NCBI RefSeq assembly: GCF_003182275.1
Contig: NZ_QGTR01000006.1
Coordinates: forward strand, 124,001-188,000
Length of the DNA: 64,000 nucleotides
DNA from: Hoeflea marina
GTDB taxonomy: Bacteria > Pseudomonadota > Alphaproteobacteria > Rhizobiales > Rhizobiaceae
Direction: 5' to 3'
Shown here: one piece after another, positions 1,184 to 48,573 of the stretch
How positions within the stretch are numbered: position 1 is the first letter of the stretch
Layout of the letters: every line of letters begins with the position of its first letter
Notes under the pieces: generated by a model
What the model saw: only the letters and a program-made list of their open reading frames with translations
The model's database searches: none
Told to the model about the DNA's origin: nothing
Translations under genes and position numbers: made by a program

Positions 1184-1441
1184 TCAGCTGCGGTCAGCGT
1201 GGGCCGGGGCGCGCGCGTGACGGAGCCGGTCAGGGAAATGCAGGAGGCGGACCGGTGCTCCCGCTGCGCCGATGCCGGGAATGACGGCCGGGTCGAATGG
1301 CAGATCGGCGATCTCGCGCTCGGTCATCCGGCTGAGATCGGGATGCGACAGCGGATCGGCTTCCCAATGCGGTCTGCGATCCGGAACATCGAAGGAATGC
1401 GGCAGCAGGCGGAGTGCCCTGAGAGCGAGATCGTATAGCAT
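1184..1441 (-). CDS. DUF1127-like small protein
   Basis: An 85-residue reading frame whose central stretch HPDLSRMTEREIADLPFD resembles the core of DUF1127 proteins, small basic proteins abundant in Rhizobiaceae, some of which bind RNA and affect sRNA turnover. A Leu/Arg-rich N-terminal helix (LALRALRLLP) precedes it. It is transcribed divergently from the LysR gene at 1512, a common arrangement for a regulator and its target, and is followed by a hairpin terminator. The C-terminal 25 residues show nothing recognisable. The family assignment rests on motif resemblance only. Confidence 0.6.
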   Translation of the reverse strand: MLYDLALRALRLLPHSFDVPDRRPHWEADPLSHPDLSRMTEREIADLPFDPAVIPGIGAAGAPVRLLHFPDRLRHARAPAHADRS

Positions 1442-45029: not shown

Positions 45030-46034
45030 ATGCCCGCAGCCCGTCCGCCGCTCGCCGCTCCCGCAGGCTCGATCAGGTCGTCCTGGTTCCTGGCCGAGCG
45101 CGAAGCCACGCCCGAGGCCGCCTTTCTTAGCCGGCGGTCCTTGCTCCGGTCGCTTGGACTCACCGGCGGGGGGCTGATCCTCGGCAATGCCGTGATGCCG
45201 GGCAGGGCGGCGGCCGGCAGTGCCGCCGACAAGACCGCCGGGCTCTATCCGGCCCGGCACAATGATGCCTTCGAGTTGGACCGGGATCTCACCCCGGAGG
45301 AGATCAACGGCAAGTTCAACAATTTCTATGAATTCGGCTCGCACAAGCAGATCTACCGCGAGGCCGAGCGGCTGGTCACCGATCCGTGGCCGATCAGCAT
45401 CGACGGGCTGGTCGATCGTCCGGAAACGATCGAATTCGCCGAGCTGGCCAAGGCCATGTCTCTCGAGGAACGGCTCTACCGGCATCGATGCGTCGAGGCC
45501 TGGTCGATGACCATTCCCTGGACCGGCTTTCCGCTGGCCCGATTGCTGGACCGCGCCGGGGTGCAGCCGGGCGCCAGATATGTCCGCTTCGAGACGTTTC
45601 TCGATCCGGTCATGGCGTCAGGGCAGCGCCAGGTCTGGTATCCGTGGCCCTATGTCGAGGGCGTCACCATCGCCGAGGCGCGCAACGATCTCGCCTTCCT
45701 GGTCACGGGCGCCTATGGCAAGCCGCTCGCCAACCAGTTCGGGGCGCCGCTGAGGCTGGCGCTGCCATGGAAATATGGATTCAAGTCGATCAAGTCCATT
45801 GCCCGAATCTCGCTGGTGGCCGAGCGGCCGGTCAGCTTCTGGGAGTCCATCAGCAAGACCGAGTACGGATTCTGGGCCAACGTCAATCCGGCGGTGCCGC
45901 ATCCGCGCTGGAGCCAGGCGAGGGAACAGGTGCTGCACACCGGAGAGGAGCGGGACACGCTGCCGTTCAACGGCTACGGGCAGCAGGTGGCCGCACTCTA
46001 CGGCGGGCTGGAGAGCGAGGCGCTCTACAGATGA
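45030..46034 (+). CDS. msrP: Protein-methionine-sulfoxide reductase, molybdopterin subunit MsrP
   Basis: Periplasmic enzyme that repairs oxidised Met in envelope proteins. The 334-residue protein has a Tat signal (SRRSLLRSLGLTGGG, Arg35-Arg36), the molybdenum ligand Cys154 in HRCVEAWSM, and the sulfite-oxidase-type fold with YGFKSIKSIARI and FWESISKTEYGFWANVNP near the end. GGAGG lies upstream of the ATG at 45030. The usual partner, membrane heme protein MsrQ (YedZ), is not adjacent; the upstream small membrane gene is not MsrQ. Confidence 0.94.
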   Translation: MPAARPPLAAPAGSIRSSWFLAEREATPEAAFLSRRSLLRSLGLTGGGLILGNAVMPGRAAAGSAADKTAGLYPARHNDAFELDRDLTPEEINGKFNNFYEFGSHKQIYREAERLVTDPWPISIDGLVDRPETIEFAELAKAMSLEERLYRHRCVEAWSMTIPWTGFPLARLLDRAGVQPGARYVRFETFLDPVMASGQRQVWYPWPYVEGVTIAEARNDLAFLVTGAYGKPLANQFGAPLRLALPWKYGFKSIKSIARISLVAERPVSFWESISKTEYGFWANVNPAVPHPRWSQAREQVLHTGEERDTLPFNGYGQQVAALYGGLESEALYR

Positions 46035-46096
46035 AGCCTGGGCACGCGATCGCATCCGCCCCGGTTCCCAGACCCCGCCGCCACCCGAATCCGGAC

Positions 46097-46214
46097 AAAA
46101 AAATGGGCCTCGAGATTGCTCTCGGGCCCATGAATTATGAAGGTTAAAACCTCCAGAGGGGAACAGCTCATGCGGCGGCACTGGGAGGAGTAGGCCGCCA
46201 AAGGTGCATCAGCT
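46097..46214 (-). ncRNA. abcR: AbcR-type trans-acting small RNA (alpha-r15 family)
   Basis: About 118 nt on the minus strand. From the 5' side: a hairpin GGCGGC/GCCGCC (46199-46194 with 46179-46174) with a 14-nt loop CUACUCCUCCCAGU that displays an anti-Shine-Dalgarno stretch including CUCCCA; a single-stranded UUCCCCUCUGGAGGUUUU section; and a 12-bp terminator stem (46131-46120 with 46115-46103, one bulge, loop GCAA) followed by seven U. This matches AbcR RNAs of rhizobia, Agrobacterium and Brucella, Hfq-dependent repressors of ABC transporter mRNAs encoded next to lsrB/vtlR, as here. Boundaries come from the terminator and the inferred promoter. Confidence 0.82.
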
Positions 46215-46220
46215 GCAGGC

Positions 46221-46296
46221 GATATGATGCTTATTTGGGCAAGCTTCAAGTGGTGAATGCGCATGCCAGCCCTGCAATCTGTGCATATCTGGCATG
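46221..46296 (-). promoter_or_regulatory. Promoter and candidate LsrB/VtlR site of the AbcR-type RNA
   Basis: On the minus strand CTTGAA (46250-46245) and CATATC (46226-46221) with 18 bp between them form a plausible sigma-70 promoter, giving a start near 46214. Upstream, a perfect 8-bp inverted repeat, CATGCCAG (46296-46289) with CTGGCATG (46269-46262), is centred at about -65, the place where LysR-type activators bind. VtlR activates abcR2 in Brucella, so the LsrB-like product is the expected binder; this is inference. Confidence 0.6.
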
Positions 46297-46352
46297 TGTG
46301 CCCCTGAAATTGTCCGGGTCTGTCTACAGGCTGGCCGACACCGCGGCATGGG

Positions 46353-47249
46353 TCAGTAGCTCCAGTTGCGCGCCTTGTTGATCAGGAAATCCCGGAACGC
46401 CTTGAGTTTGGCGGCATTTCTCATTTCCTCGGCATAGCAGAAATAGCAGTCGAAGGTCGGGATGTCGGCGGTGAGCACCAGTTGGACGAGTCCGGCGTCG
46501 CGGCTGACCATGTAGTCGGGCAGCAGCGAAATGCCGGCGCCGTTCATGGTGGCGCGGCGGATGGCGGCGAGATTGTTGATCTGCAGATGCGCCGGCCGGC
46601 GGTTTTCGTTGCTGCGCCCGGCATGCTCGAGCCAGTTCACGTCGTGGAGATAGATCGGCGCCGGCTCTCCGAAGGTGATGATTCGGTGATGGTCGAAATC
46701 CTCGATCGACCGCGGCTCCCCGAACCTGGCCAGATAGACCGGCGAGGCATAGACGTGGAAATGCACGGTGAACAGCCGCCGCTGGATCAGGTCGGGCTGC
46801 TGGGGCGCACGCAGGCGGATGGCGCAGTCGGCCTGGCGCATATTGACGTCGAGTTCCTCGTTGTCGAGGATCAACTGCATCTGGACGTCCGGAAACAGCG
46901 TCTGGAATTCCTGCGCCTTCTCGGTCAGCCAACCCTGGCCCAGGCCGACGGTGGTGGTGACCCGGAGCTTGCCGCTCGGCTTTTCGCGGGTCTCCGTCAG
47001 CCGGCTCTTGACCGACTCGAGCTTCATCAGCACTTCGTGGGCTGCCTGATAGAGGATCTCGCCCTGCTCGGTGAGGATCAGGCCGCGCGCATGGCGGTGG
47101 AACAGCTTGGCGCCCACCTCCATCTCCAGCGCACTCACCTGGCGCGAGATCGCCGACTGCGAAAGATGCAGCTTTTCGGCCGCATGGGTGAACGAGCCGG
47201 CCTCGGCGGCGGCATGGAATATGCGCAGTTTGTCCCAGTCCAACGGCAT
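46353..47249 (-). CDS. lsrB: LysR-family regulator LsrB/VtlR
   Basis: A 298-residue regulator with the start MPLDWDKLRIFHAAAEAGSFTHAAEKLHLSQSAISRQVSALE and an effector domain from about 92. The start, length, trxB neighbour and sRNA downstream identify it as LsrB (Sinorhizobium) / VtlR (Brucella, Agrobacterium), which controls AbcR RNAs, LPS, redox balance and host interaction. Cys at about positions 146 and 238-241 (DCAIRL; FDCYFCYAEE) are noteworthy since LsrB of S. meliloti senses peroxide through cysteines. trxB lies 57 bp upstream on the same strand. Confidence 0.88.
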   Translation of the reverse strand: MPLDWDKLRIFHAAAEAGSFTHAAEKLHLSQSAISRQVSALEMEVGAKLFHRHARGLILTEQGEILYQAAHEVLMKLESVKSRLTETREKPSGKLRVTTTVGLGQGWLTEKAQEFQTLFPDVQMQLILDNEELDVNMRQADCAIRLRAPQQPDLIQRRLFTVHFHVYASPVYLARFGEPRSIEDFDHHRIITFGEPAPIYLHDVNWLEHAGRSNENRRPAHLQINNLAAIRRATMNGAGISLLPDYMVSRDAGLVQLVLTADIPTFDCYFCYAEEMRNAAKLKAFRDFLINKARNWSY

Positions 47250-47306: not shown

Positions 47307-48281
47307 CTATTCGGCTGCCTGCGAATGACCGACAAATGCGGTCAAATAGCGTTCAGCCTCCAGTGCGGCCATGCAGCCCATGCCCGCCGCCGTCACCGCC
47401 TGCCGGTAGATGTCGTCGGTGACGTCGCCGGCGGCGAAGACGCCGGGAACGTCCGTCGCCGTCGAATCGGGTGCGGTCCAGAGATAGCCGTTCGGCTTGT
47501 GCTTGAGCTTGCCGGTGAACAGGCTGACCGCCGGCGCGTGGCCGATGGCGACAAAGACGCCGTCGATCGGCCTGTCGGTCTCCTCGCCGGTGACGCGATT
47601 TCTCAACCGGACCGCGTTGACGGTCGACGGCATCGGGCCGACCGGCGGCGCGCCGTGGAATTCGGTCACCTCGGTGTTCCAGATGATCTCGACATTCGGC
47701 CTTGAAAACAGGCGCTCCTGCAGGATCTTCTCCGACCGCAGCGTGTCGCGGCGATGCACGAGCGTCACCTTGGCTGCCAGATTGGACAGATAGAGCGCCT
47801 CCTCGACGGCCGAATTGCCGCCGCCGACGACGATGACCTCCTTGCCGCGGTAGAAGAAGCCGTCGCAGGTGGCGCAGGCGGAGACGCCGAAGCCCATGAA
47901 CTTCTTCTCGCTCTCGATGCCGAGCCACTTGGCCTGAGCGCCGGTGGCAATGATCAGTGCGTCGCAGATCCAGGTGGCGCCGGAATCGGTGCGCACGGTG
48001 AAGGGCCGGCTGGCGATATCCACCTCGGTGACCAGATCACTGACGATTTCGGTGCCGACATGCTGGGCCTGCTTGAGCATCTGCTCCATCATCCAGGGGC
48101 CCTGCACCGGTTCGGCGTAGCCCGGGTAGTTTTCCACGTCGGTGGTGATCATCAACTGCCCGCCCTGTTCCATGCCGGCGATGAGCACCGGCTTGAGCAT
48201 GGCGCGCGCGGCATAGATGGCCGCGGTGTAGCCGGCGGGGCCGGAGCCGATGATGAGGACGGGGACGTGGCGGGTGGTCAT
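47307..48281 (-). CDS. trxB: Thioredoxin-disulfide reductase
   Basis: Reduces thioredoxin with NADPH through FAD and a redox disulfide. The 324-residue protein starts MTTRHVPVLIIGSGPAGYTAAIYAARA (FAD loop), has GQLMITTDVENYPGY, the redox-active CATCDG (about residues 140-145), the NADPH loop VVGGGNSAVEEALYL and the C-terminal FAAGDVTDDIYRQAVTAAG. The ATG at 48281 is the family start; longer in-frame codons lack similarity. It is divergent from an Lrp-type gene and followed by lsrB. Confidence 0.97.
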   Translation of the reverse strand: MTTRHVPVLIIGSGPAGYTAAIYAARAMLKPVLIAGMEQGGQLMITTDVENYPGYAEPVQGPWMMEQMLKQAQHVGTEIVSDLVTEVDIASRPFTVRTDSGATWICDALIIATGAQAKWLGIESEKKFMGFGVSACATCDGFFYRGKEVIVVGGGNSAVEEALYLSNLAAKVTLVHRRDTLRSEKILQERLFSRPNVEIIWNTEVTEFHGAPPVGPMPSTVNAVRLRNRVTGEETDRPIDGVFVAIGHAPAVSLFTGKLKHKPNGYLWTAPDSTATDVPGVFAAGDVTDDIYRQAVTAAGMGCMAALEAERYLTAFVGHSQAAE

Positions 48282-48573
48282 GGTCGATATCCTGATGGCG
48301 GCGCGGGCGGTCCAGCCTGGCTGGTGCCAGTCTGGTCGAATCTTGACTCCCCCGCAATGAGAAGAACCGGGGATAAGCGTTTCATGCTCACCGGTCCACG
48401 GGCTCATGCCTATTTAGGAGTTCCTTTCCCGATGTTTCAAGCTTGCAGTGGCTTTGCACACAACTGTTGGTGTCCGCCTCCTGCCTGCGACTGGACAAAT
48501 CCGGGTGGCCGCGCAATAAAGTTTCGTGTATGAGGCCATTGTGATGCCTCGGACCGTTTCTTGCGAGGCATCC

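Follow-up and report, generated by a model that had tools for sequence, protein, structure and literature searches.

An AbcR small RNA gene downstream of lsrB in Hoeflea marina and its predicted, symmetric LsrB operator

The trxB-lsrB-abcR locus

We analysed a stretch of 64,000 nucleotides of the Hoeflea marina genome, referred to below as the window, in which a small RNA gene lies behind the gene of a LysR-type regulator. The genes, and the elements of the RNA, are located as follows in window coordinates.

47307-48407, minus strand: trxB, thioredoxin reductase-like (Pfam Pyr_redox_2), upstream of lsrB; trxB-lsrB co-localization as given in PMC11975290
46353-47249, minus strand: lsrB/vtlR, LysR-type regulator of 298 aa (Pfam HTH_1 and LysR_substrate; 75-86% identity to 80 named orthologues)
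46099-46214, minus strand: AbcR (ar15) small RNA (Rfam RF02345, 96.2 bits; fold z -5.65)
46182-46187, minus strand: M1, CUCCCA, an anti-Shine-Dalgarno motif that lies in hairpin 1 (RNA position 28; motif as defined in PMC5461406)
46159-46164, minus strand: M2, GUUCCC, located between the first two hairpins (RNA position 51; PMC5461406)
46097-46131, minus strand: intrinsic terminator, hairpin 46103-46131 with a U6 tail at 46097-46102 (from sequence, fold and Rfam alignment)

A preliminary description of the locus had proposed an AbcR-type small RNA, and a covariance scan of the window (cmscan) bore this out. The ar15 model of the AbcR family (RF02345) matched at 46214-46099 on the minus strand with 96.2 bits (E 8.1e-19), complete over model positions 1-112, against a gathering cut-off of 40 bits, and was the sole match over cut-off in the whole window. 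BjrC68 (19.6 bits), ncS011 (16.1 bits) and ar14 (15 bits) also matched at this region, but all three scored below their own cut-offs and were rejected as the identity of the RNA. At the level of the covariance model, membership of the AbcR/ar15 family is established.

The predicted fold of the RNA has three hairpins (z = -5.65), and none of 200 shuffled sequences was equally stable. The loop CUCCUCCCA, the section GUUCCCCUCUGGAGG and a strong terminator, all claimed earlier, are present, the last as the hairpin with its U6 tail. A simple scan for terminators gave no hit within 46000-46400 and hence missed the abcR terminator too, which marks it as a weak scan. M1 and M2 are described as mediators of AbcR target regulation in Brucella (PMC5461406); in the first AbcR copies at the best 80 of 488 loci ranked by LsrB similarity (the named loci), M1 occurs in 71 and M2 in all 80. 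By analogy with its family, the Hoeflea RNA would be expected to bind Hfq and to repress ABC-transporter mRNAs. A literature search on Hoeflea together with AbcR found no paper. The Hoeflea AbcR is an ordinary copy of a known small RNA, with a modest twist on a known circuit in the form of its likely LsrB operator, which is unusually symmetric.

The order trxB-lsrB has been described for Rhizobiales (PMC11975290). Among the best 80 of the 488 loci, the closest LsrB proteins are 86% identical to that of the window, and an AbcR copy lies downstream of lsrB at every one of the 80, as detected by means of a profile built from the Rfam matches of Hoeflea genomes. LysR domains, the trxB-lsrB-abcR synteny and orthology together identify the regulator as LsrB/VtlR from its sequence and setting. 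The RNA was thus correctly placed behind lsrB/vtlR in the preliminary description; the distance of 139 bp given there is corrected to 138 nt, counted from the lsrB stop to the RNA start. On the other side, a molybdopterin oxidoreductase-like gene (45030-46034, plus strand) converges on abcR, with about 62 bp between its stop and the end of the U-tail.

The redox cysteines C142 and C271 of the window LsrB, equated by position and context with C144 and C273 of Agrobacterium tumefaciens (PMC11975290), are conserved in all 80 named orthologues. In 42 more distant, partly duplicated LsrB rows, C271 is absent in three, one of which also lacks C142. Residue 268 is a cysteine in the window protein and a threonine in 80/80 named orthologues and in 40 of the 42 more distant rows, which include the window itself and duplicates. 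C268 and C271 together make up a CxxC, and C271 corresponds to C273 of A. tumefaciens, which is critical for redox sensing there. The pattern FDCYFCY was found in two of 199 Rhizobiaceae genomes; in the second (G096) it sits in a relative of LsrB that shares 58% identity and has alanine at position 142.

A conserved operator centred at -65

Promoters of the lsrB-proximal AbcR copies were collected from the 80 named loci and 12 further genomes, giving 92 unique sequences with the window excluded, and were aligned without gaps on the RNA start. Model position 1, together with the conserved -10 and -35 elements, places the presumed +1 at 46214. The following elements were then recognized in the window.

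46222-46227, minus strand: -10 element TCATAT (CATA at -12 to -9 in 92/92 other promoters)
46245-46250, minus strand: -35 element CTTGAA, with a 17-nt spacer to the -10 (TTG at -35 to -33 in 92/92 other promoters)
46261-46290, minus strand: conserved predicted LsrB/VtlR operator AG-N3-TGC-N7-GCATGNCTGNCATGC, in the window GCAGGGCTGGCATGC with -58 T>G (92-promoter comparison)
46267-46291, no strand assigned: central dyad CAG-N3-TGC-N7-GCA-N3-CTG, axis 46279 (-65), complete in the window as in 16 of the 92 others

An E. coli-type promoter scan of 46000-46400 found nothing. In the alignment, TTG and CATA are 100% conserved at every position, and a TGC at -27 to -25 is conserved at 83, 99 and 99%. 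The operator spans -76 to -47 with its dyad axis at -65. On its distal side, AG at -76/-75 is kept in 77 and 82% of the promoters and TGC at -71 to -69 in 96, 89 and 98%. Towards the promoter follow GCATG at -61 to -57 (83, 100, 100, 99 and 86%), C, T and G at -55 to -53 (100, 79 and 98%) and CATGC at -51 to -47 (90, 90, 100, 100 and 100%). Complementarity mirrored about -65 is 0.80-0.96 for the TGC/GCA pairs and 0.82, 0.65 and 0.48 for the CAG/CTG pairs. An exact TGC plus GCA occurs in 62 of the 92 promoters, so not every promoter has the distal half.

The promoter-side part of this element coincides with a published LsrB box. In S. meliloti PabcR1, the box GCAT-N3-TG-N3-T lies at -61 to -49; its removal is reported to lower reporter activity more than 22-fold, and LsrB binding was seen in gel shifts (PMC8844928). 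The strict form of this box is present in 54/92 relatives; a lax form is present in 78 of the 80 first copies and fails in two. VtlR is reported to bind the abcR1 promoter in A. tumefaciens (PMC7486931), and the reverse complement of the Brucella VtlR box, given as CAATGCAGCCATGCA (PMC12595884), matches GCATGGCTG-CATTG. For S. meliloti, PMC7486931 states that abcR is not under LsrB regulation under its conditions, whereas the later PMC8844928 gives the opposite result, with LsrB acting on abcR.

The 92-promoter comparison allows the oddly non-palindromic LsrB/VtlR box to be re-read as the promoter-side part of a TGC-N7-GCA dyad plus the next half-site. If the box is part of a dyad with its axis at -65, the regulator would therefore behave as an ordinary LysR activator. 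T-N11-A motifs in tandem had already been noted (PMC8844928), and the dyad reading sharpens that observation and that of a TGCA-N6-GCAT site (PMC10746234).

Similar sites were sought elsewhere in the 5.26-Mb genome. The short pattern GCATRGCWGNCATGC with up to two mismatches gave 147 forward and 133 reverse matches (controls 22 and 25) and was rejected as a site finder because it is too loose. The longer operator pattern with up to two mismatches gave 22 matches (control 4), three of which were the abcR site in overlapping readings; the context was inspected for four of the other 19, at three places. Two overlapping matches form an operator-like site (965650-965674) ahead of a gene for a 46-aa DUF1127 protein (Pfam E 1.5e-14). 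In Brucella melitensis, VtlR is reported to act chiefly on DUF1127 genes and AbcR2 (PMC12595884), and NfeR1 (ar14) is named as an LsrB target in S. meliloti (PMC10746234). A similar site ahead of DUF1127/ar14, known kinds of VtlR/LsrB target, lends support to the LsrB-operator reading of the element.

An ar14 RNA (92.8 bits; L178 1354-1629, C1:965769-966044) lies directly behind the DUF1127 gene, an arrangement that suggests a joint unit of DUF1127 mRNA and ar14 small RNA. Upstream of a second ar14 RNA (L177 1397-1422, contig C2), the stretch ATGCGTTTTTGGAATAGCTGCACTGC resembles the LsrB operator. At L193 (1501-1525, minus strand) the operator-like TGCAGTTTGCGCATAGCTGCACTGC stands about 90 bp upstream of a 57-aa frame (1237-1410, minus strand), a candidate LsrB target by its position; the frame resembles DUF1127 by eye and gave no significant Pfam match. 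The match at L179 falls inside long open frames.

The inverted repeat and the predicted symmetric operator

A perfect 8-bp inverted repeat with arms 19 bp apart, centred at about -65, had been proposed as the LsrB/VtlR operator. The repeat is present on the plus strand as CATGCCAG (46262-46269) and CTGGCATG (46289-46296), with a spacer of 19 and its axis at 46279, which is -65 for +1 at 46214. Its arms, and a further feature that overlaps it, are these.

46262-46269, no strand assigned: promoter-proximal arm, the conserved side (columns -55 to -48)
46289-46296, no strand assigned: promoter-distal arm, its outer part private (columns -82 to -75; five outer pairs complete in 0/92)
46273-46297, plus strand: inverted second operator half, TGC-N7-GCATATCTGGCATGT, including a perfect published box GCAT-N3-TG-N3-T at 46283-46295

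The 64-kb window contains 99 perfect 8-bp inverted repeats with spacers of 3-30, or roughly 0.8 in every 500 bp, and such a repeat alone was rejected as proof of an operator. The repeat is meaningful because its axis is that of the operator conserved in relatives; about the other axes tried in the window promoter, from -98 to -21, at most four of eight pairs form. Its right arm and inner CAG/CTG lie within the conserved operator and overlap the published LsrB/VtlR box. An LsrB operator near -65 comprising these parts is likely, and the right arm is kept in the aligned relatives. The full 8-bp repeat is not a conserved signature: the outer left half is private to the window among the 93 promoters, and for that part the earlier proposal fails by its own standard, under which a poorly conserved repeat would count against it.

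The window site also departs from its relatives within the proximal half. The T at -58 is near-invariant (91/92, the exception being G034), and the window has G, so that its box, GCAGGGCTGGCAT, at exactly -61 to -49 (46275-46263), carries one mismatch, GCAG for GCAT. GCAG departs from the relatives at a base kept in 91/92, which could mean a weaker promoter or one that does not depend on LsrB. From the 92 relatives, the window being left out, a position weight matrix was built that covers -77 to -46. The window site gave the two best scores in the 64 kb, one on each strand (28.9 and 24.8), the next non-overlapping score being 3.3. The forward score of 28.9 falls in the lower fifth, 17 of the 92 relatives scoring lower.

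With up to one mismatch, the operator pattern matched three times in the window's own 5.26 Mb (control 0), two of these being the abcR site read both ways. In 18 Hoeflea genomes it matched 41 times (control 1), 28 of the matches being assigned by position to abcR promoters; all exact matches fall at abcR promoters, and only the window's genome has a match in both orientations. The symmetric operator is a private feature of this genome among the 93 promoters compared. The loss of T at -58 and the gain of a mirror half may represent compensation or chance.

The outer left arm might be a chance extension; the functional operator would then be just the asymmetric element that the relatives conserve, with -58 T>G weakening it slightly. 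This view agrees with the RNA and LsrB parts of our explanation and departs from it solely in what the second half does. The abundance of 8-bp repeats in the window speaks for it, as does the behaviour of the outer pairs in the relatives: all five outer left bases are paired in 0/92 and four in 5/92, and complementarity for these pairs (k = 13-17) is 0.09-0.34 per pair, near background. With the inner CAG/CTG set aside, five additional pairs are left, a chance of about 1 in 1000 per promoter at equal base frequencies, which over 93 promoters is not overwhelming. Against chance stands the reverse score of 24.8, which none of the 92 relatives reaches at the mirrored place (median -7.2, maximum 17.1; at least 15 in 2/92 and at least 20 in 0/92), and the extension contains, on the opposite strand, a perfect match to the published box. 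Moreover, the exact, fully symmetric 20-base pattern occurs in one of 394 Rhizobiaceae genomes, the window's own; if up to two mismatches are allowed, 13 genomes have it (one genome in the backward-read control), in four of them, the own genome included, at abcR, which adds three further abcR promoters. Chance extension is a serious possibility, to which we give slightly less than even weight.

That the repeat instead works in RNA, as a hairpin that terminates or stabilizes the trxB-lsrB transcript at its 3′ end, is very improbable. It sits in the 3′ flank of lsrB and appears as an 8-bp stem in the predicted fold, and between the lsrB stop and -75 the window has no hairpin followed by a T-rich stretch, such as is found in 21 of 81 sequences, the window included. 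However, this stretch is not more stable than shuffled sequences (z -0.37), no T-run follows the repeat, the terminator scan (weak, as noted above) gave no match, and the axis coincides with that of the DNA operator conserved in 92 promoters; the hairpin was rejected on these grounds. It is equally hard to believe that the single copy is regulated as S. meliloti AbcR2 is, by RpoH1 under stress, rather than as AbcR1 by LsrB: its -35 CTTGAA is that of the RpoH1 consensus CTTGAA-N16-CCTATAT (PMC8844928) and TTGAA is found in 18 of 28 boxless downstream copies, but TTGAA also occurs in 13/80 first copies, the two box-failing ones not among them, and the window copy has the operator and a 17-nt spacer and lacks CCTATAT. 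A divergent promoter served by the symmetric operator was considered; inspection by eye of the plus strand at the mirrored distance revealed no -10-like sequence.

Homology and operator conservation argue strongly for LsrB control of Hoeflea abcR. From the RNA family, the gene order, the position and conservation of the operator and its match in both directions, we consider it highly probable that this is an AbcR1-type orthologue under LsrB via an operator at -65 that is symmetric in this lineage. In the mechanism we propose, LsrB made from the gene just upstream would occupy the operator around -65, in the dimeric or tetrameric form of LysR-type proteins, and recruit RNA polymerase to the conserved housekeeping promoter CTTGAA-N17-TCATAT. 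The folded AbcR would present CUCCCA (M1) and GUUCCC (M2) to its mRNA targets, which would mainly serve transport and metabolism, and pairing would lower their expression. In this lineage the proximal half has lost its T at -58, and an inverted second copy of the half lies across the dyad; this nearly symmetric site may still hold LsrB although its proximal half is weakened. The Hoeflea variant offers a natural test of which operator half matters.

A more speculative idea, which we regard as unlikely, is that sensor and operator were retuned jointly: LsrB would have gained an additional cysteine, giving the CxxC (C268-C271) at the redox-critical position, and the abcR operator would have passed from the asymmetric form seen in the relatives compared to a fully symmetric one that LsrB can occupy both ways, with an altered redox setting of the AbcR level from a single gene copy.

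Copy number and known systems

The single RNA copy seen in the preliminary description proved to be the sole AbcR match in the genome (5.26 Mb, 20 contigs, 96.6% complete). Within Hoeflea this is unremarkable: among 17 genomes of the genus in which a match was found, nine have one copy and the rest two to four, counts in which tandem repeats may have collapsed in draft assemblies. The genus count was made with stricter filters; G007 (77% complete) has no copy, and in G012 (9% contamination) the second copy is on another contig. The statement in PMC3712013 that AbcR is always multi-copy in Rhizobiaceae does not hold for the window's genome, and we read it, as worded there, as over-general and not as a criterion of the family.

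All 30 Hoeflea copies score above 14 for the forward operator motif, some of their promoters being in the training set; the tandem copies therefore keep the site. Tandem arrays of three or four abcR copies, every copy with an LsrB-type box of its own, occur at L078 (G017), L016 (G003), L080 (G016) and L074 (G005), and in G005 the distal half is weak in two of the copies. In S. meliloti, by contrast, only AbcR1 is reported with such a box. Of the 53 downstream copies at the named loci, 25 have the box; a TTGAA -35 occurs in 18 of the other 28, which fits the RpoH1-driven AbcR2 described for S. meliloti (PMC8844928).

The comparisons with Sinorhizobium and Brucella are drawn from papers. The Hoeflea gene resembles that of S. 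meliloti AbcR1 (alpha-r15, RF02345, LsrB-activated) in RNA family, place behind lsrB, promoter layout, the place of the box at -61 to -49 (here with one mismatch) and the M1 and M2 motifs. It differs in being a single copy where S. meliloti has a tandem pair, in the change of box base 4 from T to G and in the extra inverted operator half upstream. The order trxB-vtlR-abcR is shared with A. tumefaciens AbcR1/VtlR, and the box GCAT-N3-TG-N3-T, in Hoeflea one mismatch away in transcription orientation and perfect on the opposite strand, has its counterpart in both this system and Brucella AbcR2/VtlR, where VtlR activates the gene as LsrB probably does in Hoeflea. Species, copy number and operator symmetry set these systems apart, and direct VtlR binding, predicted for Hoeflea, was shown in them. 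The S. meliloti NfeR1 (alpha-r14) promoter belongs to another RNA family, and its NtrC repressor site is a feature of that promoter. As described, it too is LsrB-activated, and its TGCA-N6-GCAT at -72 to -60 is a T-N11-A dyad of the same TGC...GCA kind.
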